Shown here: in pieces, positions 1 through 63,441 of the stretch
How positions within the stretch are numbered: position 1 is the first letter of the stretch
Layout of the letters: the number at the start of each line of letters is the position of its first letter
DNA from: Hygrophila difformis
Lineage: Eukaryota; Streptophyta; Magnoliopsida; Lamiales; Acanthaceae
NCBI GenBank assembly: GCA_030278955.1
Contig: JAOANR010000002.1
Span: 29,684,057-29,748,056 of the forward strand
Reading direction: 5' to 3'
DNA: 64,000 nt
Made by a program: the position numbers and the translations under genes
The notes under the pieces: model-generated
Databases searched by the model: none
The model's input: the letters and a program-made list of their open reading frames with translations, nothing else
What the model was told of the DNA's origin: nothing

Positions 1-1531
1 CGTCTTGGTACTGTTCACAGCCATCATCATCTCATTCGCGCCCAGCTTCATCATATTCTTCTTCAGAATCAATTTCTTTCCGCGTTCCCGGCTCAATCAT
101 GACCATTCGTCTTTCTCTTTGCAGACAGTCTCGGGAATAATGGCCTTTTTGTACACACTTGAAATATACGACATCCTTGACATCCCGTTTGGGTTTGTCT
201 CTATCATCCTTCCTGTACCGCTACGAATCCTTGAAATCATTGCCCATCTCGAATCCCTTTGGCTGATTAGGCCTGTCATCCTTTGGTGCACTGGGCTTTC
301 CATATCGTTAGCTGGGCTTCGAAGGCTGCGCATTTGACCTAGTCGTCCAATACTTGGTGGTATTTAAAATGATCGCGGATTTGACTGGTCTGTCTTGGAG
401 TTGTTGATCAATCTCAGCGGACATCTGGACTAAGTGCTTCAAACCAGTGTATGTCCTTAAGTTGACTTCAGCTAAGACCTCTCTTCTCAAACCCCTCTTG
501 AACCTTGATATAAGCAACAGTTCATCTTCATTGATTTGGACCCTCATCATGCGGCATTCCAAGTCCTTATAGTAGTCATCCACAGTTTTGTTGCCCTGCA
601 CACAAAAATTAACCTTCTTGTACAAGTCATCAAAATAATTAATAGGAACAAACCTCTTCTCGATATCATGCATGAGTTCAGCCAAAGTCGAAATAGCTGG
701 AAGTCCCAGACGATGTCCATTGTGTAGAATTTTCTGCCACCATGTCTGAGCATAGTCCTTAAATTCACACTTGGGAAGTTGGATCTTTGTGAATTCGTTG
801 TATTGTTGGCCATCGTAGATCAACTCAATGGACTGCCTCCAATCGATGAACTCTTCCGGATCGTTCCTGCCTTTGAATGCCGGAATTGTGAATTTGATTC
901 CACTCAAATCGGCTTCTAATCTGTTATGCTCGACAGGTACTTGTCCCTCGCCTTCATTGTCAAGGTCAATCCCAGGTGGATCCCCTTGAACCGGATTCAG
1001 ATTCAGCCTCTGGCGGATAGGCGGATGTATAGGTGGCCTTGCTGCGGCTGCTGCGGCGGGTGCCGGAGGTGGAGGTGGTTGGAATCGTTCATCTTGCGTA
1101 ACTTGAGGTCGGTAGTCGGAAGGTGTGTCCCGTCGAGCTCGCGGACCTCGTCTTCGGTCAAATGTCCCAAACTGTAAATCCTACTCCTCAATGGTTGCTT
1201 CTGCTTCGTCCATTTCCGATCGGTGAACCCCATTCGTGCTCCCTGGAGTGATGTTCGGGGGCGATGGCGTTGGATAGAATGCTTCTTCAAGCCTTTGCTC
1301 AACCCGTTGCATGACCCATGTATTGATAGCCTGCTCTTGTATAGCGATTCGACTAGAGACATCATTTACAAGAGTGTCTACACGCTTATTTACAGCAACT
1401 ACACTAGCCACCTTTCCATCTAGTGTCTGGCGCACTAATTCCAAGTTAGTCCTTCTACTGGTTGTCTCAGTCAGATTCCTGAGTGCTTATATGATATCCC
1501 TCAAAGTTGGCTCAGTGTTTCTGCCATTTTA
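1..1531 (-). pseudogene. Ty3/gypsy gag remnant (5' part of an old LTR retrotransposon)
   Basis: This is the capsid/nucleocapsid (gag) region of a gypsy retrotransposon, read leftwards and running off the window. One reading frame can be followed from about 1489 to the window edge. A coiled N-terminal part is followed by a Pro/Ala-rich linker near 1010-1080 and the retrotransposon gag core at about 310-880, with the typical FKGRNDPEEFIDW-like start and the WW motif. A nucleocapsid zinc knuckle lies near 130-165. The frame is broken by TAA at 1487-1489, TAG at 1181-1183, TAA at 308-310, TAG at 221-223 and TGA at 32-34. The presumed ATG at 1531 is followed by a frameshift. In the knuckle the first Cys is Tyr (YFKCVQKGHYSRDC), so it would not bind zinc normally. 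Dead gene; family assignment is secure. Confidence 0.85.
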
Positions 1532-3489
1532 GATTAAAGAGAAAAAAAGGAACTATATATATGTATAATGGGTTAGCTAAAATATACAAAAATGGGTAGA
1601 GTGATCTCACAACTGTATCTCTCACTGAAGGTTCGAATTCTTCACCTTCCAGTAGGGCGGGTAGTGCTCAACCGTACAACCAACAGCAGATGGTGAGAAA
1701 AGATAGTAATGGACACACAGTGCCCGAATCATAATGCATTGTTTGACTCTATCAAAGAAAAGACGCAGAGTTGTGTGTGAAATGTGATTAATCTGAATTA
1801 ATTTATCAGTTTACCGTGTTAATCAGCTAAGCAAGCAAATATTCAGACCCCTCGCAATTTAAAAGTGTAAAGTAAAAAACCTCACAAAAATAAAATGCTC
1901 GGAATAAAATATGTGACTCACTCACACAATCCCAATAAATAAAACCAAGCTGTCAGACAACCGGGTCTCACTTACTGTTGAGGAACTCCAATATCTGGCT
2001 TGCAGCCGGAGCTTCAACTCTGTGGTTTGTAAATTAAATCAGAGGAACAAAGTGACAAGTACTTATTGCTCGAGGAATTCTAGTGCCAGTTATAGACTCT
2101 GATGGAACTTCAACCTGATTAATTGTTCGTGATTTAAATCAGTGAAACCGTAGAGTAAAAACAATGCCTTAATTCCGCCAATTTTGAATTCGAATTGGAA
2201 TTTTGTAATCGACAATAGTAACTGGCCTCGGAATTGGAGATGGCACACGTGGCAGAAACTGAGTGGTCAGCCCGAATCTGCTTTTGACATCGCAACAGAC
2301 TTGAGCGTCGTAATACAATGGTCGCGACGTAATGCGGAGGATTGCAACGTAGGAGGGGATGGCGTCACAATGCTTCAGCTTTCCTTTGACGTAGTAATAG
2401 GATGATGGCGTCCCATAGCTTGTGTCGCGATGTACCACGGTGGATCGCGACGTAATGGATTATGGCGTCGCAACACTTCTGATCTCATCTTATGTCGTGA
2501 AGGTAGGCTGGCGTCGTGATACCCGTATTGCGACGTAGCTTGGGGGATTACGACATAGCTGCTCTCGATGGACTTTACGCCGCAATGCGAGACTACGTCG
2601 TAACCCTGGGATTCGCAATGTGAGATGAGGACTGCGACGGCAAGTGGTGCGATGTAAGTGGGGGTTGTGACGTGACTTGTTGGTTTGCGACGGGCATCGG
2701 GAAGGGCGTTCTGCGACGTAGCTCCTGGATTGCGACGTACGTCATAATGCGAATTACGTCGTGTCCCTGGGGACTGCGACGTGAGTGCTGGCCCTCGAAT
2801 GTCATAACGCGAGGTTTACGATGCGATCGTGTGCCCGACGTAGCAATGGTTTGCGACGTAGCTGCTTCCCCTTTCTTGTCCTTTTATGCTGATGTTGACT
2901 CAATGTTTGTTCCCAACAACTTTGGCAGAATTGTAAACCCTAATTAAAACCCCAAAAAAAGCATGCACTATCCCGATGTAATCTTGTCCCCAAACAAAAC
3001 ATAATAACACTCAAACCAAACCCTATTTCGGATCAAAGTGACAATTAGCAAGAAACTTTTGAATGTCCCTCAAGAACTCAAGAACACTCATACGGAACCT
3101 CTAAAAACCAAAACCCCCGAATGCTCTCTAAATGAAAGATGTTGCAAGCACATAAAACCAATTAATGCTTAAAACCAATCAATCAACTCAAACCGAACAC
3201 AAAATCACAAGAATCCAAGCTAGAAACCCTAACCTAAAACAAGACCAAGGTCTCGGCCATGGAGATGATTTTGCTAGAGTTAATGGAACTTTGTGATATT
3301 GGTGTCAAACAAAAGCTTTCCTAACGAGGATACTAGAGGTGCAATCGACTCAATCAAACATCAAACACAAGATCCCTAAATGGTCAAGAAAGGTCTCGGC
3401 CAAAATGAAAAAAAATAAAGAACCAAAAATATTTTTGAGATTTCAATTTTTAAAAGGATGGAATGGAGTGGGAAATCGATCCAATCTAT
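1532..3489. other. Non-coding leader region of the old gypsy element
   Basis: No gene is visible. By position this lies between the primer-binding site at 3490 and the gag start at 1531 of the minus-strand element, so it would be its untranslated leader or unrelated inserted DNA. It is AT-rich, except for a CpG-rich block at about 2270-2880 that is listed separately. The assignment as leader is an inference from order only. Confidence 0.4.
2270..2880. repeat. Dispersed degenerate GCGACGTA motif cluster
   Basis: The octamer GCGACGTA occurs exactly at least six times here (near 2323, 2437, 2525, 2716, 2733 and 2855). There are many one-mismatch forms such as GCGACGTG, GCAACGTA and GCGATGTA, at irregular spacing and often preceded by GGATT. 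The same motif fills 18402-18690, which belongs to the split LTR of the same element. It is not a simple tandem repeat. The ACGT core resembles plant bZIP sites, but binding is only an inference. Confidence 0.6.
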
Positions 3490-3930: not shown

Positions 3931-6517
3931 TGTAACACCCCAGTTTTTGGTCACCCAGGTTGGAATGTCACCGCCACACCTCCTTAGTAAGACACGGTTT
4001 CTCCGGCTTACTAAAGAGATGCAAGGCTAGGTATTTCAGTATTTAAAATATTTAAACCATTTGCAAACAGCCCATACAGTATAAATTCAAAAATAATAAT
4101 ATCATAATGCAGCGGAAATAATATTTAAGTATAATATTGCAGCGGAAATGTAAATAAGACCGACATGGTCAAAACACGGGTTAAACAGGCCCGTTTATTC
4201 TATAGTCTAATGCAAGAATTTAAAAATAAAGTTTCGCAAAATATAATTCCCCCATGCATGAACGTGCTCATGTTTGTTCCACATACTCTGTAAGGAAAAG
4301 GAAAAAAAAACGGTTTGGTCAGCACAACTTGCTGAGTAAGTTAACACATGCTTGATCGGAGGGTTTTAAAAGCCATTAATTTAATATTACATAAAAATAT
4401 GATAATACGCCATAAATAATTCAACTTAATTATCTAACCAATTTGCATAATATTTCATGGCACTAGTCAATAATACATTTAGCACAATTTAAAATGAAAG
4501 CCATAATTAATTTAACCAAAGCATTTAACAATTTAAACGACAACTATAAATAATCCAATTAAATTTAAATTCCCCATTACATTCCCGATTTAGTAATTTC
4601 AAGTGTTTCACGATTGCATCGCGATCTCGACAAGTTTAGCTGGAAACCGGAGGCCGCAGCCGTATCCGCCATACCCAGTACCACTTCGGATCCTCGGGAA
4701 ACCCATGTGGATATTCACGAGAGTGTAGGCCACATATCTCATGCCGTTTTGGCAATATCATATCTCAATTTTCGCGCGGGGTCACCATCGTCCATAAAGG
4801 CACGAAGTGAAGCAGTTAGGGGGCACCCTGCAGAGCACTCACCCCTAATTTTAATTTATCAAGTTGTAAGGGGATTTATTTCAAAAATTCTGGTTTCACT
4901 AAATTTATTAAGAAAAGATTTTTCGACTCGTTTCAACCCTAAAGGCTAATTCCATCATTTCAACAAGATTTCAAGATTTGACTCCGGTAAACCGCTGTTT
5001 ACTCTAAAATTAATTTAAAATCGGATTTAAGTCCAAAAATTCTGAAAATTTACCACTGACTCGGAAACACCGAGATGAACAACTTTTGTGTTTTAACATT
5101 TTCAATCCGAAATACCGAAATAGGTCAAAAATACCGATTTTTGTAGAAACATTAATTTGTCCGAATTTATCATACAGCAGTTCAAGATTTTCAAGATCTA
5201 CCATAGCAAATCAAATCCAAACTTGACGACATTTTACAGAGACCTTCTTAAGACATTTTTCTACAACTTTTATGTTCGGCTAAAGATCTAAATCGGCCTA
5301 GAACCCTAGTCAAAAACGTCATCTAGTTCAAACTTATGTTCTGTCAAGAATTTCAAGATTCAAATCTTAGCAGTTCGGTTCCGGCTTGATTTCATATATC
5401 AAATCATCACGAAAAATTCTGAAAATTTTACAGGAAATAGATCTAAGCCTTAGGAACGTTTCTCGTGTTTTAAGTTTTCTTGTTTGAAAAATTTTAAGGG
5501 TTCGGAAAAATTGTACAAAATCGCTGCGCCGGTAGAAATCACATGTTGACAGATTTTCGAAAGTCTTGATTAAGCTTTTAAATTTAAGTGTTTTAATTAC
5601 TCCCAAAACCATGTAAGTGTCAACTTACAGATTTCCAGTCGTCCGGGAACGTCGATTTCGGAGGCGTGGCTTCCAGTCCACCGTTTATCTTCTTCGTTCG
5701 TCGGGTTCTTCATTCTAGATCCGATTCGGGGTGTAGAGAAGAAAAAGAAGAAGGTTAGGATTCGTTTTCGAATCGCATATGGAATAAGGATCGGATCAGA
5801 ACTTACCACGACGTTAGAGATCTTCCGAATTCGTCCACGACAGTCCTGACCTTGGTTTCGTGCCTCCGACGACTCCGGAATTAGGGTTTTCGAACGTATA
5901 GAGAGTATGGATGTTTTGAAAATTGTTTGGGGCTTTCAAGAGGGGTTATTTATAGGTAGACATGACCTAGGAGGACGTCCTTGGTGAGTCTTGAGCCGAA
6001 AGGTGTTCAACCGAAGTCGGAAAATCCGGATTCGGGCGAGTGAATCTCGCAACCGGCGAATCTGTCGTGTGGCGCGGTCGTGGCGCGCCAATTCCCCTTT
6101 CACCGCGCGGCCACCGCGCGGCTCACGCCTGGACTTCGGTCCGGGCGGGTCGTGCGATCCGTCGTGCCTTTCCTCCTCTCTTTCGGACTTCTATCCCTCT
6201 ATGCTCCCGGATTCCGATTTCCGGGCCATCTTCGGGTTCCTATTCCGTATCGTCATTTTCCTCGGATCTAAATTTATGTTTGGACTCGAGTTTTCGAGTC
6301 CATTGGTATCGGGTACACGTGTAACAATTTATTTATCTTTATTTAATTCTTTTTATTTAACTAAATTCCTTTAATTCCTTTTTAAGTTAAATCTCATTTC
6401 TCATTTCCTTATCTTTATTTATTTATTTGTTGAATTTATTTATTCATTGTATTTATTTTATTTATTGTTTATTTATTTAATTATTTGTTTTATGTTGCAA
6501 AATTCTCGGGTATTACA
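3931..6517 (-). repeat. 3' LTR of the chromovirus
   Basis: It starts TGTAACACC and ends GGGTATTACA on the + strand, and is colinear with the copy at 15812-18401. A minus-strand TATA box, CTATAAATAA, lies at 5946-5955. A GC-rich stretch occupies 6040-6240. No gene is encoded; short open frames in the GC-rich stretch are not conserved proteins that I recognise. Confidence 0.92.
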
Positions 6518-6518
6518 G

Positions 6519-6533
6519 TCTACCCTCCTAAAG
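6519..6533 (-). other. Polypurine tract of the chromovirus
   Basis: The minus strand reads TTTAGGAGGGTAGAC directly before the LTR start TGTAATACCC. It is preceded by the inverted repeat CTTCGAGGACGAAG, a motif typical of this position in plant chromoviruses (Tekay/Del-like). The same block recurs at 51365-51398 in the opposite orientation. Confidence 0.75.
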
Positions 6534-6761
6534 AATCAACTTCGTCCTCGAAGTTGTGTTTCGGCTTTTCTCGTGCTAAGGTCTTTTGTTTGTTTTATTA
6601 TTTTGTGACTGAACTTAGAATTAAAACTTCTAAGCTGCCTACGTACCCTGTGAAGGGATCAAGCCATAACGTAGTTCAAAACAATTTGAATTTGTTTGTT
6701 TGTTTACAAAAATGCACGAAAAAATACATGGTATGACATCCTCTCCCCCTTAAGATTGCAG

Positions 6762-8155
6762 TTATGTCCCCATAACTGTGTCGGTGTCGGTTTGGAACAG
6801 TGTCGGATAGCGTTCTCTCATGTCGGATTCTACCTCCCAAGTTGCCGTCTCACTTTCGTGGTTCGACCAAAGAACCTTGATCATTTTGACGGTTTTGTTC
6901 CTCGTTACTCGCTCCTTAGTGTCCAGAATTCGCCCTGGGACTTCTTCATAAGTCAGGTCCTCATCGAGTTCGATTACTTCCGGTTGAAGTACATGTGTCG
7001 AGTCTGGCACATACTTCTTTAGTTGTGAGACATGGAAGACATTATGAACTCGATCTAACTGTGGCGGTAAAGCCAGTCGGTAAGCCAAATTTCCGACTCG
7101 TTCTAGAATCTCGTAAGGTCCTATGTATCGAGGACTCAACTTTCCTCGTTTGTCAAAGCGCATCACCCCCTTCATGGGTGATATCTTTAGCATGACCCTA
7201 TCTCCCACTTGAAATTCTAGGTCTTGTCGTCTCACGTCAGCGTAACTCTTCTGACGGTCTTGAGCGGCTCTCATTTTTTCTTGAATCACTTTGATTTGTT
7301 GAGCCATGTCTTCGATAAGTTGTGGTCCCACTACCACCGACTTATCGTTTTCTTCCCAGCTCAATGGGCTTCGGCACCTTCGTCCATACAACGCCTCGAA
7401 AGGTGTCATGCCAATGCTAGCATGGTAGCTATTATTATAAGAAAATTCGATTAAGGGTAAATGGGATTCCCAATTTCCCTTAAATTCCAACACGCTTGCT
7501 CTCAACATGTCTTCTAGTGTTTGGATTGTTCTCTCGGTTTGACCATCCGTCATCGGGTGGAATGCGGTGCTCATTTTGATTTGAGTACCAAGAGCTTTTT
7601 GTAACTCCGTCCAAAAGTGAGAGACAAATCTATTGTCTCTGTCGGAAATGATATCATGTGGTACTCCATGTCGTCGTACCACATTATCAACGTAGGCTCG
7701 GGCCAATTGGTCCATAGTCCACGTGTCCTTCATCGGGATAAATATGGTTGTCTTCGTTAGCCTATCCACAATCACCCAAATCTTGTTCATGCCTTTAGGT
7801 GATCGGGGCAATCCCGAGACAAAGTCCATCGAGATGCTATCCCACTTCCAACTTGGAATCTCTAGTGGTTGCATCAGTCCTAAGGGTTTATGTCGCACTG
7901 CCTTAACCCTTTGGCAGGTGAGGCATTTCGCCACGAAGTCTGCCACTTCCTTTTTCATTCCCGGCCACCAATAGATCTTCTTTAGATCTTTGTAAAGCTT
8001 GTCGCCTCCGGAATGCACTGAGTATGGCGTGTTGTGCCCTTCCTCCATCAACCTTCGCTTCAACTCGGCACATTTGTGGGGCACACACCATCTCCCTTTG
8101 AAACGAATGCTTCCATCCTCGTGGACTGAAGCTTTGAGGTAAAACCCGCTGCAAT
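6762..8155 (-). CDS. Chromovirus integrase with C-terminal chromodomain
   Basis: Integrase inserts the retroelement cDNA into chromatin. Counting from the Met-like codon at 8084, the zinc-binding HHCC residues are H17, H24, C54 and C57. The catalytic triad is D87, D148 and E184, with DD35E spacing. Then come a GPY/F-like region (SPRYIGPYEILERVG) and a C-terminal chromodomain-like segment (PGRILDTKERVTRNKTVKM). The chromodomain assigns it to the chromoviruses, where it guides integration to particular chromatin. The frame stays open upstream to about 8155, where pol homology (FKGRWCVPHKC) is interrupted. It would normally be the end of a pol polyprotein, not a separate gene, and no in-frame ATG start is expected. 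It stays open over at least 440 codons while the rest of pol is damaged. Confidence 0.85.
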
Positions 8156-15811: not shown

Positions 15812-18401
15812 TGTAACACCCCGGTTTTTTGTCACCCATGTCGGGATGTCACCGCCACACCTCCCTAGTAAGACACGGTTTCTCCGGCTTACTAAAGAGA
15901 TGCAAGGCTAGGTATTTCAGTATTTAAAATATTTAAACCATTTGCAAACAGCCCATACAGTATAAATTCGAAAATAATAATATCATAATGCAGCGGAAAT
16001 AATATTTAAGTATAATATTGCAGCGGAAATGTAAATAAGACCGACATGGTCAAAACACGGGTTAAACAGGCCCGTTTATTCTATAGTCTAATGCAAGAAT
16101 TTAAAAATAAAGTTTCGCAAAATATAATTCCCCATGCATGAACGTGCTCATGTTTGTTCCACATACTCTGTAAGGAAAAGGAAAAATAAACGGTTTGGTC
16201 AGCACAACTTGCTGAGTAAGTTAACACATGCATGATCATAGGGTTTAAAAGCCATTAATTTAATATTACATAAAATATGATAATACACCATAAATAATTC
16301 AACTTAATTATCTAACCAACTTGCATAATATTTCATGGCACTAGTCAATAATACATTTAGCACAATTTAAAATGAAATCCATAATTAATTTAACCAAAGC
16401 ATTTAACAATTTAAACGACAACTATAAATAATCCAATTAAATTTAAATTCCCCATTACATTCCCGATTTAGTAATTTCAAGTGTTTCACGATTACATCGC
16501 GATCTCGACAAGTTTAGCCGGAAACCGGCGGCCGCAGCCGTATCCGCCATACCCAGTACCACTCCGAAGCCTCGGGAAACCCATGTGGATATTCACGAGA
16601 GTGTAGGCCATATATCTCATGCCGTTTTGGCAATATCATATCTCAATTTTCGCGCGGGGTCACCATCGTCCATAAAGGCACGAAGTGAAGCAGTTAGGGG
16701 GCACCCTGCAGAGCACTCACCCCTAATTTTAATTTATCAAGTTGTAAGGGGATTTATTTCAAAAATTCTGGTTTCACTAAATTTATTAAGAAAAGATTTC
16801 GACTCGTTTCAACCCTAAAGGCTAATTCTATCGTTTCAACAAGATTTCAAGATTTGACTCCGATAAACCGCTGTTTACTCTAAAATTAATTTAAAATCGT
16901 ATTTATGTCCAAAAATTCTGAAAATTCACTAATGACTTGGAAACACCGAGATGAACAACTTTCGTGTTTTAACTTTTTCAATCCAAGATACTGAAACAGG
17001 TCAAAAACATCGATTTTTATGGAAACATTAATCTGTCCGAATTTATCATACATCAGTTCAAGATTTTCAAGATCTACCATAACAAATCAACTCAAAACTT
17101 AACGAAATTTTACAGAGATCTTCTTAAGACATTTGTCTACAACTTTTATGTTCGGCTAAAGATCTAAATCGGCCTAGAACCCTAGTCAAAAACGTCATCA
17201 AGTTCAGATCTAAGTTCTGTCAAGAATTTCAAGATTCAAATCTTAGCAGTTCGGTTCCGGGTTGATTTCATATACCAAATCATCACAAAAAATTCTGAAA
17301 ATTTTACAGAGGATAGATCTAAGCCTTAGGAACGTTTTTCATGTTTTAAGTTTTCTCGTTTGAAGACTTTTAAGGGTTCGGAAAAATTGTACAAAATCGC
17401 TGCGCCGGTAGAAATCACATGTTGACAGATTTTCGAAAGTCTTGATTAAGCTTTTAAATTTAAGTGTTTTAATTACTCCCAAAACCATGTAAGTGTCAAC
17501 TTACAGATTTCCAGTCGTCCGGGAATGTCGATTTCGGAGGCGTGGCTTCCAGTCCACCGTTTATCTTCTCCGTTCGTCGGGTTCTTCGTTCTAGATCCGA
17601 TTCGGGGTGTAGAGAAGAAAAAAAAGAAGGTTAGGATTCGTTTTCGAATTGTATATGGAATAAGGATCGGATCGGAACTTACCACGACATTAGAGATCTT
17701 CCGAATTCGTCCACGACAGTCCTTGCCTTGGTTTCGTGCCTCCGACGACTCCGGAATTAGGGTTTTCAAACGTATAGAGAGTATGGATGTTTTGAAAAGT
17801 GTTCGGGGCTTTCAAGAGGGGTTATTTATAGGTAGACATGACCTAGGGACGTCCAAGGTCGGTCTTGGTGAGTCTTGAGCTAAAAGGTGTTCAACTAAAG
17901 TCGGAAAATCCGGATTCGGGCGAGTGAATCTCGCAACTGGCGAATCTGTCGTGTGGCGCGGTCGTGGCGCGCCAATTCCCCTTTCACCGCGCGGCCACCG
18001 CGCGGCTCACGCCTGGACTTCGGTTCGGGCGGGTCGTGCGATCCGTCGTGCCTTTCCTCCTCTCTTTCGGACTTCTATCCCTCTATGCTCCCGGATTCCG
18101 ATTTCCGGGCCATCTTCGGGGTCCTATTCCGTATCGTCATTTCCCTCGGATCTAAATTTATGTTTGGACTCAAGTTTTCGAGTCCATTGGTGTCGGGTAC
18201 ACGTGTAACAATTTATTTATCTTTATTTAATTCTTTTTATTTAACTAAATTCCTTTAATTCCTTTTTAAGTTAAATCTCATTTCTCATTTCCTTATCTTT
18301 ATTTATTTATTTGCTAAATTTATTTATTGATTGTATTTATTTTATTTATTGTTTATTTATTTAATTATTTGTTTTATGTTGCAAAATTCTCGGGTATTAC
18401 A
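15812..18401 (-). repeat. 5' LTR of the chromovirus
   Basis: Colinear partner of 3931-6517, with TG...CA ends. A minus-strand TATA box, CTATAAATAA, lies at 17822-17831. The right end, TATTACA, is followed at once by the target duplication TCGCA (18402-18406), which fixes the boundary exactly. No gene is encoded. Confidence 0.92.
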
Positions 18402-49981: not shown

Positions 49982-51137
49982 ATGGCGGCTAGGGTTTCTT
50001 CGGCGAAAGGTGCGACTTCTCATGCGAATCCTCCTCTGGCTTCCGCGGAGGCCACGGCGGCGGCGTTCCAATCTCCACATGACCCTGGTGGTCACTCCCG
50101 ATCGTGTGCTGACATCTTGCGGGGGGGGTCACTCATGAGGAAACTTCGGTCCGACGTAGAAGGGACTGAATAGCGGAAAAGTTGATTATTAAGACCCATG
50201 TGGAGGGTAATCCGGCTATCCCGAAATTTGTGATTGATGAATCCATTGAAGTCGAGGCTAGCAAGGCGTGGGAGGATGCCTTGGTCATCAAGTTACTCGG
50301 GGCGCACGTTGGTTACATGGTCCTGCAGGATAGACTTAAGCGTATGTGGAAGATTGAAGGCAACATGGTCATGATTGACGTCGGGCATGGATGTTTTATT
50401 GTCCGTTTTAACTTAATGTCGGATCGGGAGATGGTGATCAATGGGGGACCTTGGATGCTCTTTGATCACTACCTCGCTATTATGCCATGGTCGAGGGATT
50501 TTAATCCCAGGACGTCACAGGTTAACAAGACGTCAGTGTGGGCGCGTATGAATGGATTATCCATGCACAGATTTCGTGAAGATATCCTCTGGGCGTTGGC
50601 TTCCGGTATTGGAGAGGTGATTAAGTTTGACAACTGTACACGGGATACTTCTAAGGGAAGGTTTGCTCGGGTGTGTGTGGCTCTTGATTTGACGAAGCCT
50701 GTGACGGGAAAGATATTAGTTAAAGAGGAATGGGTTCCTATTTCATATGAGGGACTACACCTTTTATGCACCAAGTGTGGGCGCTATGGTCACTGTGATA
50801 GGGACTGTTCAGATGTCAAGGCGAGGAGGCCGAAGTGGAAAAAGAGGATGCTGGGGCCGCGAAGGGGGAGGCGGACACCGTCCGGGATGGGCTGCATGGG
50901 GAGGGTGAGGATGATCAGGGAGATCTAGGCATGAAAGACGTGCTAGTGGGGGAACATGGCGTGCATTCGGAACCAGTGTATGGCGAGTGGCTAACTGTTG
51001 TTAGGAGGGGGAATAGAAAGCCCAGGCAGCCGAGGGAGAGGGTGGCGATGCAGGAGTCACCTGCTGAGGCAACATCGGACGATACAGACCCAGGGTTCAG
51101 TGACAAAGGAAAGGCGGCTATAAGGGGGTCTATGTGA
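49982..51137 (+). pseudogene. LINE ORF1 (DUF4283 plus zinc knuckle), frameshifted
   Basis: ORF1 proteins of plant L1-type LINEs bind the element RNA. The ATG at 49982 is in a good plant context. Translation meets TAG at 50171, and the downstream frame continues from about 50173, so a frameshift (perhaps in the G-run at 50120) separates them. The central part (50180-50820) has the DUF4283 fold (GCFIVRFNLMSDREMVINGGPW) and a zf-CCHC_4-type knuckle, CTKCGRYGHCDRDC, with all four ligands. A second shift near 50835 leads to a tail with YGEWLTVVRRGNRK, typical of LINE ORF1 C-termini. ORF2 (endonuclease/RT) is absent because sequence changes to an LTR element at 51130. Confidence 0.8.
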
Positions 51138-53869
51138 TACCCCGTAATAATTTATTTTTGGAGTTCGACTCGATAAGATGCATCCTGAAAATATATATAT
51201 ATATATATAATAAACAAATTCAAATTTGTTTTGAACTACGTTATGGCTTGATCCCTTCACAGGGTACGTAGGTAGCTTAGAAGTTTTAATTCTAAGTTCA
51301 GTCACAAAATAATAAAATAAACAAAAGGATTCGTTCTTAACACGAGAAAAGCCGAAACACAACTTCGAGGACGAAGTTGATTCTTAAGGAGGGTAGACTG
51401 TAATACCCGAGAATTTTGCAACATATAATAAATAAATAAATAAAGAAATAAATAATAAAGAAAATATAATAAATAAATAAACATGATAAATAAATAAAGG
51501 TAAGGAAATGAGAAATGAAATTTAACTTAAAAAGGAAGTAAATGAATTTAATTAAATAAAAGGAATTAAATAAAGATAAATAAATTGTTACACGTGTACC
51601 CGACACCAATGGATTTGAAAACTCGAGTCCAAACATAAATTTAGATCAGAGGGAAATGAAGATACGGAATAGGAACCCGAAGATGGCCCGGAAATCGGAA
51701 TCCGGGAGCATAGAGGGATAGAAGTCCGAAAGAGAGGAGGAAAGACACGACGGATCGCACGACCAGCCCGGACCGAAGTCCAGGCGTGGGCCGCACGGTA
51801 AAAGGCCAAATGGCGCGCCACGACCGCGCCACACGACAGATTCGCCGGTTGCGAGATTCACTCGCCCGAATCCGGATTTTCCGACTTCGTTTGAACACCT
51901 TTCGGCTCAAGACTCACCAAGGCCGACCTTGGACGTCCCTAGGTCGTGTCTACCTATAAATAACCCCTCTTGACAGCCCCGAACACTTTTCAAAAAACAT
52001 CCATACTCTTTATACGCTCGAAAACCTCAATCCCGGAGTCGTCGGAGGCACGAAACCAAGGCGAGGACTGTCGTGGACGAATTCGGAAGATCTCTAACAT
52101 CGTGGTAAGTTCCGATCCGATCCTTGTTCCATATACGATTCGAAAATGAATCCTAGTTTCCTTCTTCTTTTTTCTACACCCTGAATCGGATCGAGAACGA
52201 AGAACCCGACGAACGGAGAAGATAAACGGTGGACTGGAAGCCACGCCTCCGAATCGACGATCCCGGACGACCAAAGATCTATAAGTTAACCTTACTATGG
52301 TTTTGGGCGAATTAAAATACACCTAACGTAAAGATCTAATCAAGAAACTAAAAATCTGTCTATATGAAAAACCCTACGGCGCAGCGTTTTTGCGTGAATT
52401 TTTCGAACCCTTAAAACTATTCAAACGAAAAAGCTTGAAACACAAAAAACACTCCTAAGACTTAGATCTAGCTTCTGTAAAAATTTCAGAATTTTTCATG
52501 TTGTTTTGATACCTGAAACTGACCCAAAACCGAACTGCATTGAATCTGGATCTTGAAATTCTTGACAGAACTTTAGTTCGAACTTGTTGGTGATTTTTAC
52601 CTTAGATCTAGACCGATCTAGGATTGGTGCTAAACATAAGAGTTGTAGATCTATACGTTAAAACATCTTCGTAAATTTTTGGGACTTTTAGTTGAGGTTT
52701 GATATCGGAATTCGTTCTCAAACCGAACTGCTTTGAATTTGAATCTTGAAATCTAGATAGAACTTAGGTTCGAACTTGATGACGTTTTTGACATTAGATC
52801 TAGACCGATTTGGAACTTTAGCCGAACATGAAAGTTGTAGGTATATGTCTTAGGTATTTCTCTGTAAAATTTTATCAAATTTGGAGTTAGTTTGCTATAG
52901 TAGATCTTGAAATCTTGAAACTGGTGTCAGAATTTTCGGACAGATTATCATCCTGTTAAAGATTGACATTTTTCACCTACTTCCGTATCTTGGATTGGAA
53001 AACTTAAAACATGAAACTTGTTTATCTATATATTTTCGAGGCACTGGTCAAATTTCAGAATTTTTGGAATTAAACACGATTTTTAATGAATTTTGAAGTG
53101 AACTGTGGTTGACCGAGTCAAATCTTGAAATCTTGTGGAAACTTGTGAAATTTGCGAAACTTGTTTTGACCTTGCGGGTTCGATTCCCCAAGGGCGTCTG
53201 TGTCCCTGCGGGTTCGATTCCCTAGGATGTCTGTGTCAAACCTTGCGGGTTCGATTCCCCAGGGTGTATGTTTTCCTACGGGTTCGATTCCCCAGGATGT
53301 CTGTGTCAAACCTTGCGGGTTCGATTCCCCAGGGTGTATGTTTTCCTGCGGGTTCGATTCCCCAGGGTGTATGTTTTCCTGCGGGTTCGATTCCCCAGGA
53401 TGTCCGTGTCAAACCTTGCGGGTTCGATTCCCCAGGGTGTATGTTTTCCTTCGGGTTCGATTCCCCAGGATGTCCGTGTCAAACCTTGCGGGTTCGATTC
53501 CCCAGGATATGTGTTGATTCCTACGGGTTCAATTCCCTAGGATGAATTTGAGTTCTTGCGGGTTCGATTCCCCAAGGGCGACTGTCTGTTTTCCTGCGGG
53601 TTCGATTCCCCAGGACGTGTGTTGATTCCTACGGGTTCGATTCCCTAGGATGCGTTTAACTTCTTGCGGGTTCGATTCCCCAAGAACAAATTATACTAGA
53701 TCATATTGAATAAAAGAGAAAGAATGAAATCCTGAAATAGTATTTGATATTTTCCTTATTTAAATTATGCCTTGCGATTATTTTACCATGTGTGTTGAAT
53801 TATGACCTTGTGGAAATCCTTGTCTTTTAAATTATGCAATAAAATTATTATTAGATGAATAAAATTAAA
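51130..53869 (+). mobile_element. Chromovirus 3' end plus LTR, interrupted by the Tat element
   Basis: From about 51210 the sequence matches, in opposite orientation, the integrase-to-LTR interval of the element at 3931-18401. This includes CTTCGAGGACGAAG, the polypurine tract AAGGAGGGTAGAC (51386-51398) and an LTR starting TGTAATACCC at 51399. A TATA box, TATAAATAA, lies at 51955-51963. The LTR is colinear with the other two to about 53140, then carries a tandem array. It has no recognisable LTR end before 53870, where the Tat LTR begins, so it is probably split by that insertion. The block 51130-51210 begins TGATACCCCGTAAT, itself LTR-end-like. Confidence 0.75.
53168..53690 (+). repeat. Tandem ~35-bp array carrying RNA polymerase III B-box matches
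   Basis: Fifteen units of about 33-37 bp in the form C(C)T.CGGGTTCGATTCCCCAGG plus a variable spacer. Two spacer types (TGTATGTTTT and TGTCTGTGTCAAA) tend to alternate. Fourteen units contain GGTTCGATTCC, an exact fit to the B-box GGTTCGANTCC; unit 11 has one change (GGTTCAATTCC). The two other LTR copies lack the array. I see no A-box at tRNA spacing and no cloverleaf. Confidence 0.9.
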
Positions 53870-54437
53870 TCATGTCTTGTATGCACATGTTTTCTTTAAT
53901 TTTTATTGATTGATAATGTGGAAGACGATTACAAGGATTGAGGAAAGGATTTTGCAGAAAGGAATTACACTGGAAAAATAACAACTGGGAATGAAAGAAA
54001 ATACTGTAAAGTGCAGAAAACTTAAAGAAAATAAAACTGCAGACTTCTGGTGTAGAGTTGAGATGCCTTTGACGATGCCTCCACCTAGTATTTATAAGGA
54101 GGCGCATTAGGTCTATCGGTTTAAGAGTGGAGTTGTAACGCCTCAATCTTTCCTCCGTAGATGACGCCTCAATCTCCAAAGTGCAGCCGTGATCATCTCT
54201 TGTCGTGAATGCTCCCGATCTCTTATGCGATCCTTCCATATCTGCTTGCATGAGCCGCCAGCTTCTCACCACCACTAGGTATTATCCCGATAACACTCAA
54301 ACTGGGCCGGGCCTCTTGAAAATAGATTGGGCCTCTCGAAAACGGATTGGGCTTAGCTTAATGGGCATCTGAATTGGATTGGGCTTCTCGAAAAAGAATT
54401 GGGTTAAATTCATTGGGCCTAAAATATTGGGTTAACA
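53870..54437 (-). repeat. 3' LTR of the Tat element
   Basis: Its minus-strand start TGTTAACCC follows the polypurine tract GCGAGGGGGGCATC. A minus-strand TATA box, TTATAAATA, lies at 54089-54097. The far end is placed near 53870 only by expected size and a nearby TG; it may be off by tens of bases. No gene inside. Confidence 0.6.
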
Positions 54438-54579: not shown

Positions 54580-55330
54580 AATTTTTTAGGCATTTTTTGA
54601 AATTTTCCTCTTTTTTCTTCCCTCTTCTTCTTCTTCTTTCCTTCCTTCGCCGGCCCTAGGAGATCGTAACCGACGCTGCGCCATCGATCTTCGCCAGCGT
54701 CGCCCACGCAAGTCACCATCGTTAGAGTGCTGACTCGTCGCCATCTCGCTTTTTTTTCGCAAAGCCGAGCGCCGCCACCGCCATCCTGGTCCAAACGCCG
54801 CCGCTCCCAGCCGCCAGCGGTTTCTGTGTGTGTCGCCAACCCGCCACCTCAATTTCGCGAGCGCCTCGTCGCTGAGTCTGGTGCCATCCGAAGGTTGCTG
54901 CCCGCTACGCTTGCCAAGCTCCGGCCGCCACCCTCACTCAAACGCCGCCAAAATTGGAGCGCCGCCAGCCTCTGCCAGCGTTGGGCCGCCAGCCAGCCGC
55001 CAGCCCTCTCCGGGCCGCCAGCCCCTCTCCGGCCGCCAGCCTCTCCGGGCCGCCAGCCCCTCTCCGGCCGCCAGCCTCTCCGGCCGCCACCTTCCTGGTA
55101 GCCGCCAACACTTTCGTGCGCCGCCAACCACTCGCCCGGCCGCCAGCCTAGGCTCGTCCAGCCGCCAGCTCCTTTCCGCTCCGGCCGCCAGCCCTTTCCG
55201 CTCCGTCCGCCAGCTGCCTGTTGCCGCCAGCTCCCTGCCATCGGGCCGCCAGCTCCTGCCATCAGGCCGCCAGCCAGCCGCCAACCGGCCGCCAGTCGCC
55301 ACCCATCGGGCCGCCATCTTGCTTCATTCG
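54580..55330 (+). other. GC-rich, AUG-free 5' leader with CGCCAGC repeats
   Basis: No ATG occurs on the + strand between the TATA box and 55331. From about 54780 to 55310 the leader is filled with GCCGCCAGCC-type words. Frames stay open by composition, which can mislead gene finders. The same words continue into coding exon 2, so the repeat spread across the exon border or was recruited as coding. Confidence 0.6.
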
Positions 55331-58300
55331 ATGGATCAGGTTAGCGCCTCATTTGTTTGTTCTTATTGAGTGAATTCGAAGTGTATGTCTATGCCTCATT
55401 GAATTACATGTTCGGTCTGTGATCCTTGGCACTTGGAATTGCTTTGGCATCTAGCATTAGATGTTAGTTGAATTTGCATGCTCGGGTTGTTGGCGTCTCT
55501 TGATACTTCGAATTGCATCTTGAACCTCAAATTGTATGCTTGCTTAGGCAACTTGTTTTCCATCCTTAGCCGTATGATGTTGACTGAATCTTGGATTCAT
55601 GTTAGGATTGCTTGAATTGCACCCAACTCTCATGAGTGGTCATGAATTGTATCCATGTCTGTTTGATGCCACATAGGAGCTAATTCATCCCAAGCTTGAT
55701 TCTTGATGAGCATGCTTCAATCCCTTTACATAGGATTTTAAAACATCATGCCATGCTAGCTCCTTGTCTTTTACTAGATGATTGATCGATTGAGTATCTC
55801 TCAAACATATTGCATTTTAACATAGAATTTAGCCGACGAGACGCCAGTCGCCAGCTCTAGGCCGCCGCCAGCTGCTCCGGCCGCCAACTTGAGCTCCGGG
55901 CCGCCAACACGAGCTCGGGCCGCCAGGTCCAAGTTCTCTCCGGCCGCCAGCCCCACTCCGGCCGCCAGCGCTGGGCCGCCAGCCTCTTCTGCTGGGGCTG
56001 CTGGCCGCCAGCCACCACCTTCACAGGGACAGGCTGCCATCCCCTTGCCAGGCTTTGCTGCCTTGTCGTCTGGTGCTATGGCCTTTCAGGTTTGCTCTAA
56101 TCTCTATGCCTGCTTGTATGTCCATCTCTTTGCCTGCTTGTGTGTTCACTCGATTTGTTCAAATTTGTAATAGGACATTGTGGCGAGGACTCCTCAGGCC
56201 ACCATTCTGGGTACCCAGGCCGCCACTCCTATGCAGGCTGCCACTCATGCCGTGTCTCAGCCGCCATCCTCATCAGCTCGGGCTGCCGGGTCTTCTACTC
56301 AGGTTTGCTCAACTTACTTGATATGTTAATTCGTCCTTCCTCGAATTTGCTTGATATTTGCTTGATATGTGTATCATAATAATGCAGATTGCTGAGGGAC
56401 TACTCATTCCGGAGTCTGATGATGAGGCTTATGATTTTGACCGCCGGGAGTCCGAGCCTTTTTTACGTCCATTTCATCGCACGACTGCCCATGCAGATGG
56501 AGATGAGACCCGGGAGTTTCTATCTTGTATATGTCCGATCACTCAGGCTGCATTTACTGGAGCCTTTGTTTCGCAGACGAGGTCTATCCGGTCTCATCAG
56601 TCTGGTACCACTGCTCCTAGATCTAAGAAGGCTAAGGCTTCCCGAATCGAAGAGAATGAGGATCAGAGTATTTTGGAAAAGTATGTTTCATGGGTTCGCC
56701 GGATGCAGAGGGGAGGACGCACAGCTGATTGGCGTAACTGGGGTATTGAGGATGCCATTATTCTTTCTACTAGGCCAGTAGTGATAGATCACCGTCTCAT
56801 CTATTATATCTTGGGCTTCTGGAACTCCAGTGTTAACGCCTTTCAGTTTCCTTGTGGTTTCGTGGGTCCCACGCTTCTTGATGTGATCATGATCACCGGA
56901 CTCCGAGTGGATGGTTCAGAGTTGACACAGTCGGCTTCTGATGATCGAGCTCTTGGTGACTCTATTTGTCCTTCGGGCAAAGAGACTAAGCAGTACGCGG
57001 CATTCATTGATAATAATATGACGTCCGAGAGTTCTCCTTGCACCTTGGATGAGCATGTGGCCTTTCTGTTGCTGTGGTTTAGCCGGTTTATTATCTGTTC
57101 GAGGGCTCGGACCGTCTTGCGTTCCGCTCTTCCTCTGGTACGGGCTATTATGAGTGATCCTTCTCCGGCCACTGGTTCTTATTTTCTTGGCACCCTATTC
57201 AGTGGTATGGCCAAGATCTCTGGTATGCTGGCTAGTGGGCGAGATCCCACTAATTCGGCATGTGGGCCGTTATGGTTTCTGCAGCTCTGGATCCAGCTGT
57301 ACTTTCCTCGGCTTTTTACTGGCGTGCCTCGTCCTGGTCCGCAGGATGTTGCTGATGGTGACCCGTTAGGCTTGATATTAGCTGCTGCTTCGGTGAGGAT
57401 TGGCAGGGATGGTCTTTTGCAGCGGGACAGTCTGGATATTATTCGATTTTTTCTGCACCACAGGCCCTCTTATCAGGACTTATACGTGTATGCCTCTATA
57501 GGATGGTTGCTGTCCCAGCTTGTGTGCAAGCCTGATCAGCCACGAGGTCTACATGGAGAATCCACCTGGAATGTGAGTATGAAGCCTCATATGCTTCTGA
57601 GTGGGCTAAAGAGGAAGGATCAGTATAATCCGATCGTGGCTGAGCCGTACTGCCCTCATTTGCTCGCTCGTCAGTTCGGTTGCCACCTCGGACTTCCTCG
57701 CAGTGTGAAGTGGCCGGTATCTTTTAGGAGTAAGAGGATGACGGTCGCTGACATCCGGGCAGTAGTTGATTTCTCGTCCCGTCTGACGTTATCTAGCTAT
57801 CTTCCATTCACTCCGACGGGGACGCTTGCTGCTGGCTTTATGGCATGGTGGACGCCCTACATCACCTCCATCTTGCCATCCTATGCGCAGATTACGGCTC
57901 GTTTTGGGGACGTGCGGCGAGTTAAGCAGCCTAGCGTTCATAGTGCCGCTGTTCAGTCGGCAGCTACTCTTGTTTCTAGTCGCACCCCGAAGTCAAAAGC
58001 TGTTGCGGCTTCCTCATCTCGCAAACGCCGAAGAGGTATGTCTCATTTGTTAACATGTCTCTCATACACTGTCTCTTGGTCTTTTAATATTTCTCTTTTC
58101 TTCAGCTGCTGACCATGACAGTGAGGATGATGAGGGCGATGCCTCAGATGACCAGCCTGAGGAGCCTGCGAGCTCTGGGGAGTCTACTGATGAGGATTAC
58201 ACTGCTCATTCTGATGAGGATGAGACTTCTGGTTCTAGTGAGGAGGAGTCGAGTTCAGGTGATGGCGATGAGGATCCTGTAGATGATGATGGTGATCCTA

Positions 58301-61357: not shown

Positions 61358-63441
61358 GGGCGACAGGATTGCCAGCCTGAAGCAAGTTGAGCAGCCTCGT
61401 TGGCCTCTTGATTTTGGCTTCTAGGCACATGTGTGATGGTAGCGTCCGAAAACTTGCCCAATAGCTCTAGTGCTATCTCGTAACACTTAATCAATCTGGG
61501 ACTCTTGCACTCATATTTTCCTGTCAACTGCTTCAGGATGACTTGGGAGTCTCCAAAAATTGTAATGGATTTTGCACCCTTCAGTAATGCAGTTTCGAGG
61601 CCAAATACCAGAGCTTCGTATTCTGCTTGATTGTTGGTGGTGCCAGGTTCTAACTCCCGAGCAAGCTTCCAATGTTCCCCAAGGGGACTAGTGATTGTAA
61701 TGCCGGCCCCCGAGCCGCTGCTTGCACAAGATCCATCAAAGGTTAGTTCCCAAGGTTCGAATCCCATAAAGGACGCTTCTTTGGGATCCTCTGGCAAAAC
61801 CAACGAAGGGTGTTGAGCTAAGAAGTCTGCCAAAGCTTGTCCCTTGACTGCCTTTTGGGGAACGTGTACAAGGGTAAACGGACTGATCTTCATAGCCCAC
61901 TTAGCTTGTCTTCCTTTCAATGCTGGCTTGTGCAAAAGTGTCTTTACCAAATCAAAGGGAGCTACTACTTGGACTGTTCTTGGCAGCATGTAGTGTTCCA
62001 ACTTGCTGCAGGAGTATACTAGGGCGTAGCACAGCTTTTCTAATGCAGTGTATCTTACTTCTGGCCCTTGCAAAGTCTTGCTAAGGTAATAGATAGCCCT
62101 CTCCTTGCCTCCTTCATCATCCTGTGCAAGCAAGCACCCGATAGACTCCTCGGCGGCCGATACATATAGTTTCAGAGGTACTCCAAGTCTTGGCGGCACT
62201 AATACTGGAGGATTGACCAATGCTCTTTTAATTTCTTCAAATGCTGCTTGATGCTCAGTCGTCCATACGAACTTCTCGTTCTTTCTTCCTTTAAGTAAGG
62301 TAGTGAACGCTTTCATCTTGCCTGTAGCATTGGCAATGAATCTCCTTAAGAAATTGATTTTACCCATCAATGATTGCAGTTCTTTGAGATTGGTTGGTGC
62401 ACGAGCCTCCAAGATGGCTTTAGCTTTATTTTGGTCTACCTCAATGCCCCTCTCATGCACCAGGAAACCTAAGAAGTTTCCTGCCGCCACTCCAAAGGCA
62501 CACTTAGCTGGATTGATTTTCAATCCACGCTGCCTCATTCGGATGAAGGCATCTTCGAGGTGAGTCAAGTGTTGGCCAAATTCACATGATTTTACAACTA
62601 TGTCATCAATGTACACTTCAAGTGTATGACCGATTAAATCATGAAAAATCATGTTCATGGCCCTTTGGTATGTTGCCCCAGCATTTTTCAATCCAAAGGG
62701 CATGACTACCCATTCAAAAATGCCGACTGGCCCTGGGCAACGAAAAGCCGTTTTATGTACATCATTTTCAGAAATGAAGATTTGGTTGTATCCAGAATAA
62801 CCATCCATTAAAGATAAAAACTTGTGGCCGGCGGCCGCATCAACAAGCATATCGGCCATAGGCATTACATACTCATCCTTGGGCGTTGCCAGGTTTAAAT
62901 TCCTAAAGTCTATACAGACTCTCAATTGACCATTCTTCTTTACAACAGGTACAATGTTTGCAAGCCATTCTACATAACGACAAGTTCTAATGTAACCTGC
63001 TTTAAGAAGCTTCTCAATCTCGGCCTTTATTTTCGGGATGGTGTCTGGATCGAACCGTCTTGGCGGCTGCTTATGAGGTCTGAACTCTGGATGAGTTGGT
63101 AACTTGTGTTCCACTAGCTCCCTTGATAACCCTGGCATGTCTGTGTACTGCCATGCAAAGCAATCCTTATATTTATGAATCAGCTCCACTAGCTGGTGCC
63201 GCTCCTCCTTAGGCAATGATGCGCTTATCTTGGTCAGCTTTGGCTCCACATCTGTCCCGAGGTTGATGTCCACAAGTGGTTCCTTGGCTTCCGGACTAGG
63301 CAACATCCGCTTCACAGGAGATGGCCATTCAGATGGCCGAATGTCAGTTGGGTTTTTTGACTTGATTTCGGCTCCCATCATTATTTCAGTGTTGGCGAGC
63401 CGCTGCAACAAGTCCTTATAAATGTCATAGCTGCTCATCAT
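61358..63441 (-). CDS. Tat-type reverse transcriptase with dual RNase H
   Basis: From ATGATG at 63441, the RT palm has LMDGYSGY (D213) and YIDD (D279, D280), both intact, with the FRNLNLATPKDEYVMP finger region. The following gypsy RNase H is degenerate: LYVSAAEESIG stands where YSDAS is usual. A second, archaeal-type RNase H follows (FDGSCASSGSGAG D569, NNQAEYEAL E607, GDSQVI D631). Its last acidic residue is Asn (QEANEAAQLAS, N681; usually QEAD), which should impair it. The last true pol residues are near 61358-61380. The frame then reads on past a one-base shift to a stop at 61234. The start overlaps the protease stop by ATGA. Confidence 0.88.

Follow-up and report, generated by a model that had tools for sequence, protein, structure and literature searches.

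BARE of barley is a Copia element. It has been described as having distinct RNA pools and a spliced gag mRNA, and BARE2, with conserved dimerisation and packaging signals, is packaged by BARE1 (PMC3735527). The locus analysed here is like BARE in combining splicing, here putative, with parasitism in a plant LTR element, but differs in its array of hairpins, which the available text of the BARE study does not describe (PMC3735527). With the SL-C/SL-D packaging signal of MoMuLV it would share tandem leader hairpins, a zinc-knuckle partner and dimerisation (PMC7599994, in the part available), whereas here there are 6-15 near-identical repeats placed inside the LTR upstream of the primer-binding site of a plant element, and packaging is a proposal. 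A further related group is the TR-GAG elements, defined in the available text as non-autonomous LTR retrotransposons with a gag-only interior and without pol (PMC6022998). How RNA is marked for packaging in plant LTR retrotransposons seems to be little known, and a 2025 review of host factors does not use the term "packaging signal" in its main text, as far as that text was available.

The array lies in a window of 64,000 nucleotides of Hygrophila difformis DNA, to which all coordinates refer. It consists of 15 tandem units with the core GGGTTC[G/A]ATTCCC (cores at 53176-53680, + strand, spacing 33-38 bp), and is the longest among the arrays that we examined. The initial annotation had reported fifteen units, fourteen with an exact Pol III B-box, and pattern counts bear this out, GGTTCGATTCC being exact in 14 of the 15 with a single G>A exception at 53525, and GGTTCGANTCC matching 15 times in the window, 14 times in the array and once on its own at 61754, against a chance expectation of 0.07. 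The same annotation had embedded the box in the longer GCGGGTTCGATTCCCCAGG, which is found in part of the units and is lacking from the rest. Its observation of stronger conservation in the box than in the spacer also stands, with a pairwise divergence among the 15 units of 1.0% in the core vs 19.3% in the spacer (gaps ignored), and the larger copy set described below agrees. A covariance model, R1, whose training excluded the window copy although some window units are identical in sequence to training units, recovered all 15 units at 36-46 bits, and a scan of the window at E values up to 10 gave nothing outside the array; the other two LTRs of the window, A (3931-6517) and B (15812-18401), both on the minus strand, are without it, as had been noted. 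A protein-coding repeat was rejected, because unit lengths of 31-38 bp would break the reading frame. The units, as defined by core matches and R1, are as follows.

53169..53690, + strand: array of 15 hairpin units
53169..53194, + strand: hairpin 1, R1 42.1 bits
53203..53228, + strand: hairpin 2, R1 39.8 bits
53240..53265, + strand: hairpin 3, R1 42.2 bits
53273..53298, + strand: hairpin 4, R1 41.4 bits
53310..53335, + strand: hairpin 5, R1 42.2 bits
53343..53368, + strand: hairpin 6, R1 45.1 bits
53376..53401, + strand: hairpin 7, R1 46.4 bits
53413..53438, + strand: hairpin 8, R1 42.2 bits
53446..53471, + strand: hairpin 9, R1 36.5 bits
53483..53508, + strand: hairpin 10, R1 40.4 bits
53518..53543, + strand: hairpin 11, loop TTCAATT, R1 41.1 bits
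53553..53578, + strand: hairpin 12, R1 43.2 bits
53591..53616, + strand: hairpin 13, R1 43.8 bits
53626..53651, + strand: hairpin 14, R1 44.5 bits
53661..53686, + strand: hairpin 15, R1 43.1 bits

Elsewhere in the window, a Plant mobile domain (PF10536) reading frame lies at 56355-58112, downstream of GCCGCCAGC-rich tandem repeats at 54992-55316, and for a CHX-type gene at 22162 the three closest named relatives come from Nyssa, Perilla and Camellia.

That the array sits inside an LTR, as first annotated, was settled by relatives rather than by the window, where homology to LTRs A and B ends at 53141 and none is detected 3' of the array. Family homology flanks the array on both sides in all ten loci compared, seven of which align up to 53907, and the LTR starts of L035, L036, L039, L041 and L043 correspond to 51397-51399, giving the following boundaries.

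51132..51398, + strand: 3' end of the element interior, aligning from 51132 in L041 and from about 51210 in L035, L036, L038 and L039
51386-51398, + strand: polypurine tract-like AAGGAGGGTAGAC preceding the LTR
51399..53907, + strand: LTR of the array-bearing family, starting with TGTAATACCC and cut off near 53907, placed by relatives' LTR starts and alignments

A complete copy is provided by L038, with LTRs of about 3.0 kb at 9-3015 and 5020-8028 (reading strand), an interior of about 2.0 kb, the primer-binding site TGGTATCAGAGC and a 5-bp flanking target-site duplication, GCCAT, checked in this locus only. Both of its LTRs begin about 240 bp farther upstream than those of L035, L036, L039 and L041 (reading strand 9-248) and take in PPT-side interior of the other copies, as if the LTR had been extended. 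Its interior encodes, on the same strand as the hairpins, a Gag of 356 aa that has a CCHC knuckle and a capsid of the Ty3 type (Pfam matches Retrotrans_gag, Ty3_capsid and zf-CCHC). Such a gag match is present in seven of the nine two-LTR array-bearing loci and absent in L037 and L041, which have interiors of about 1 kb, and no reverse transcriptase, RNase H or integrase match was found between the LTRs in any of the nine, the pol-type matches in L039 and L040 lying outside their LTRs. Four intact gag frames have dN/dS of 0.14-0.27 (dS between subfamilies reaches 0.77), and this low ratio indicates that gag has been kept functional by purifying selection where it is present. By gene content, the array family is a non-autonomous, mostly gag-only Ty3/gypsy family of TR-GAG type, LTRs around a gag-only interior without pol being found in most copies but not all; it differs in that two of the nine array-bearing loci are without gag and in the hairpin array, which the available TR-GAG text does not describe (PMC6022998).

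The arrays are widespread. The core 16-mer GCGGGTTCGATTCCCC occurs 15,699 times (7671+8028) in the 915-Mb genome, against 0 for the reversed control, and the first matches listed, all on one contig, are clustered, often as paired arrays separated by 3.4-5.3 kb. In the twelve loci that were fetched there are 22 arrays with 7-13 units each, and nine of these loci have arrays in both LTRs. A search with the sequence just 3' of the array brought up 3475 candidates at first look; 40 were scored and 30 extracted, and arrays are present in 28 of these 30 loci, the window's own included, and in the remaining two the family sequence is apparently broken off at or near the array, one hairpin being left in L053. 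Scoring of further family LTRs from the genome, as the initial annotation had proposed, gives 71 measured arrays of 6-15 units (696 units, 505 with the exact core; L026-L033, repeats of L034, left out), and since unit spacing within them is at most 42 bp, no core has been lost inside. In a further set of 14 loci, T-loop hairpins are present in eight and the array is absent from six, and some of these arrays have damaged units, with gaps of 55-62 bp. These counts come from one genome and from the best matches to chosen flanks, so that subfamilies are sampled unevenly. Locus L037 has three array-bearing LTRs in tandem, about 3.4 kb apart, as if from LTR-LTR recombination.

Each unit is predicted to fold as.(((((.(((.......))))))))., a hairpin of 8 bp in which a bulged C/U separates the 5-bp outer stem from a GGG/CCC inner stem and the 7-nt loop reads UUC(G/A)AUU. 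When folded one at a time, five units adopt this hairpin at -9.5 to -11.9 kcal/mol, and the fold of the complete array also beats shuffles (z -3.9 with RNA, -3.6 with DNA parameters), with extensive pairing predicted between units. The arms beside the core occur in matched forms (CCTGC..CAGG, CCTA(C/T)..TAGG, CTTGC..CAAG, TTCTG..CAGAA). Of the 35 distinct hairpins, the one that contains an extra base was set aside; among the other 34, 97.1% of pairs form (shuffles 91.6±0.8) and 28 cells are changed on both sides (shuffles 9.8±4.2), values that, like the covariation score, were each reached by 0 of 500 shuffles, although shuffles overstate the significance, the units being related. Four pairs are changed on both sides, which 15 of 500 shuffles reach, and the number of pair types is reached by 28 of 500; sliding the structure by 1-3 columns abolishes the pairing signal. 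The compensatory change expected of a conserved RNA hairpin is thus present beyond both shuffled and slid controls, and some G:C to A:T double changes could come from deamination at CTG/CAG arm sites. At the five outer pairs, inherited variant states are paired in 50 cases and not in 13, whereas pair changes after insertion break pairing in 17 of 22 (5:17 paired to broken; p=3.5e-6). On these comparisons, the units are probably RNA hairpins selected as such.

The two LTRs of an element are identical at insertion, so that differences between them represent later, unconstrained changes. In 23 LTR pairs, such changes affect 38 of 3107 core sites, 22 of 2390 arm sites, 2 of 239 bulge sites and 23 of 2586 spacer sites (four of a set of ten pairs, in which spacings differ, were left out, and L090/L091 and L094/L095 were likewise unused). 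Inherited changes, counted by Fitch parsimony on a tree built from spacers only and at sites where both LTRs agree, number 23 in the 13 core columns, 30 in 10 arm columns, 4 in the 1 bulge column and 59 in 11 mid-spacer columns (239 units), and 16 of the 23 core changes fall in two CpG columns of the loop, 8 at C56 and 8 at position 57, with none at loop positions 59 and 60. The inherited and later ratios differ for core to spacer (23:59 vs 38:23, p=7e-5) and not significantly for arms to spacer (30:59 vs 22:23, p=0.095), in plain Fisher tests with CpG columns kept in core and spacer; as units are related by duplication, neither cells nor Fitch changes are independent, and these p-values are guides. 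An earlier count, with inherited states from 17 pairs and later changes from 19 (of 24 candidates, four pairs of unequal unit number and a probable duplicate locus were excluded), gave p=5e-5 for the core against all the rest. In that material, the most frequent inherited core variant was A in place of G at position 57 (24 of 171 units), with C56 to T in 7 of 171, and in the few cases where one unit was compared across elements the core differs at 3 of 445 sites and the spacer at 6 of 413. A mutational cold spot was rejected, the core mutating at least as fast as the spacer after insertion. A core that is free to mutate once inserted, yet is little changed between source lineages, points to selection; as judged by this contrast, the core is preserved by selection in source elements, and a chance minisatellite, of which equal divergence of box and spacer in a larger set of copies would have been one sign, is rejected.

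The array site can also be occupied by a different hairpin. Six loci (L122-L127) have no T-loop hairpins; in their place stand two or three exact copies per locus, 17 altogether, of another motif, which folds as UAGAGGG-UGA-GUGCUC-4 nt-GGGUGC-CCCUCUA. In the part corresponding to the array site, window LTRs A and B each contain a single such unit, in which both sides of the outer stem differ and read UUAGGGG/CCCCUAA.

4816..4848, - strand: alternative hairpin in LTR A (3931-6517)
16694..16726, - strand: alternative hairpin in LTR B (15812-18401)

This alternative, assessed by folding only and in few copies, contains no B-box. The flanks of the two LTR kinds are 81-89% alike upstream (86-108 bp, compared with L037) and 93% alike downstream, and since they are alike on either side of differing hairpins, it seems that cassettes were exchanged at a single place of the LTR. 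A different hairpin at the array site suggests a swappable RNA module and leads away from TFIIIC as the main reason for the array.

Promoter and splice-like signals precede the array in the window LTR.

51955..51962, + strand: TATA box candidate TATAAATA, found at the corresponding place of all three window LTRs
52105..52110, + strand: GTAAGT, a putative 5' splice site about 150 bp past the TATA box, shared by all three window LTRs

At the aligned place, GTAAG is present in 7 of the 12 family loci and in the neighbouring LTR of an eighth (L045), and was not found in the other four. A pyrimidine tract with CAG/AG follows the array by about 260-360 bp in 9 of 12 loci, and the window copy ends before this signal. 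With GTAAG before the array and CAG/AG after a pyrimidine tract behind it, the array probably lies in a leader intron, and would hence be present in unspliced RNA only. By eye, a second short hairpin, TCAGCAC/GTGCTGA (TCAGCAA/TTGCTGA in others), stands right before the putative 3' splice site in L034-L041 and L043 (in L038 near 2617 of the reading strand, about 280 bp past the array), with seemingly compensating changes among loci.

Our preferred explanation, which we hold tentatively, is that the array may be a cis-acting RNA signal for Gag packaging or dimerisation of the unspliced genomic RNA. Tandem hairpins would be made in sense RNA downstream of the LTR TATA box, and their place within a leader intron would leave them to unspliced genomic RNA alone; they would offer a repeated recognition site to the family Gag through its CCHC knuckle, Gag being supplied in trans to gag-less copies, and/or would dimerise by kissing loops through the palindromic UCGA of the loop, and the RNA so marked would be packaged into particles for which a different element provides pol. 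Gag recognition is the most economical role because most elements keep only gag and the hairpin structure. L037 and L041, on the other hand, bear arrays without gag, so that an array needs no Gag of its own, and this lowers the weight that we give to recognition by Gag. Further points against the explanation are that UUCAAUU loops lack the UCGA palindrome and that C56 has changed as often as position 57, together with the predicted pairing between units, the arms that are not significantly slower than mid-spacer, and the loci with missing or damaged arrays described above.

The likeness to a tRNA T-arm and a Pol III B-box lies in GGTTCGATTCC and in the 7-nt TTCRANN loop, and the initial annotation took the array for a TFIIIC sink, a chromatin boundary or a tRNA mimic. 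Mimicry of a T-arm did not hold up: in the T-arm register, the two outer pairs (-1/+1 and -2/+2) form in 0 of 34 distinct units each, so that three of five pairs form in place of a contiguous 5-bp stem, and the covarying stem has a bulged C. No tRNA gene or tRNA-derived unit was found at the array by ARAGORN or by Rfam at its gathering threshold, the best Rfam hits being at chance level (E 0.6-7.4, tRNA-Sec among them). In viral and prokaryotic contigs (L001-L025), double cores resemble, by eye, tRNA T-arms with unbulged stems, and the prokaryotic L015, L016, L019, L020 and L022-L024 look like partly duplicated tRNA 3' ends with two close T-arms. That B-boxes in the DNA bind TFIIIC as extra-TFIIIC sites, making the array a sink or boundary, would suit the 15,699 copies of a 16-mer containing the exact box, and the commonest inherited variant, G to A at position 57, keeps the R of the B-box consensus; counted as changes, though, C56 equals position 57. 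The outer G and C are fixed outside B-box needs, as is loop position 59, a free position in the box, and the arms covary. A Pol III type 2 promoter has its A-box 30-60 bp from the B-box (PMC11346459, in the part available). Near the array, the best A-box match has 2 mismatches to the consensus, and 204 of 300 random window stretches do as well or better. Among the literature matches listed, those to the 13-mer, judging from their titles, largely concern tRNAs, chloroplasts or unrelated subjects, those on TFIIIC, tandem-repeat or hairpin arrays in LTRs include no such array, and those for extra TFIIIC with Arabidopsis are a trypanosomatid study and a review. With the hairpin of the sister LTRs lacking a B-box as well, TFIIIC binding as the main function is quite unlikely and may be a side effect; on the best reading of the sequences, the B-box match exists because the box is the loop of a T-loop-like hairpin. 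The main rival to packaging keeps that loop and changes its reader: a host T-loop protein, such as a Pus4/TRUB1-like pseudouridine synthase or another tRNA-binding protein, would treat the array as decoy or substrate and modify, stabilise or export the RNA. The loop and its closing bases, GUUC(G/A)AUUC, match the TRUB1 motif GUUCNANNC (PMC5713356, in the part available), with the G/A variation on the motif N, and such a protein would serve gag-less copies as well. The stem bulge, however, is absent from tRNA T-arms, the motif-free positions 59 and 60 are unchanged whereas the motif-fixed C56 has 8 inherited changes, and related LTRs use a hairpin that lacks this loop, so that we regard this as rather unlikely.

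Hairpins might also multiply without benefit to the element, if they promote template switching by reverse transcriptase and only intact ones are copied core to core. Unit numbers do differ between the paired arrays of some elements (9/11 in L041, 9/7 in L064/L065, 9/8 in L084/L085), and higher-order periods are seen (70, 103 and 173 bp in the window, 38+35+35 bp in other copies). Copying alone, however, would be expected to leave core mutations in pre-existing units, and units with distinct spacers persist across subfamilies (gag dS 0.65-0.77) with their cores staying alike, which makes a mechanism-driven minisatellite unlikely. A last rival is a DNA-level palindrome downstream of the promoter, either a cruciform or the site of a dimeric DNA-binding protein. 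Covariation alone cannot separate RNA from DNA, and the array beats shuffles with DNA parameters too; G:U-type pairs, at 19 to 7 on the sense strand (p=0.014, related units), point to RNA, and we regard the palindrome as very unlikely. The damaged units and the DNA fold score give slightly more weight to these last two explanations.

Returning to packaging, the fuller form of the proposal, doubtful as a whole, is that plant Ty3/gypsy elements may use a modular, exchangeable packaging or dimerisation signal, in which many T-loop-like bulged hairpins in a leader intron would be carried by genomic RNA only, would be read by Gag in cis and in trans, and would be swapped for an unrelated cassette in sister elements, keeping their RNAs apart. 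With a short, repeated and selected hairpin in very many copies, a natural alternative for it, and a gag that is intact in some members of the family, the question of packaging becomes one of a binding assay, and the array suggests that conservation of an RNA loop can keep a B-box perfect.
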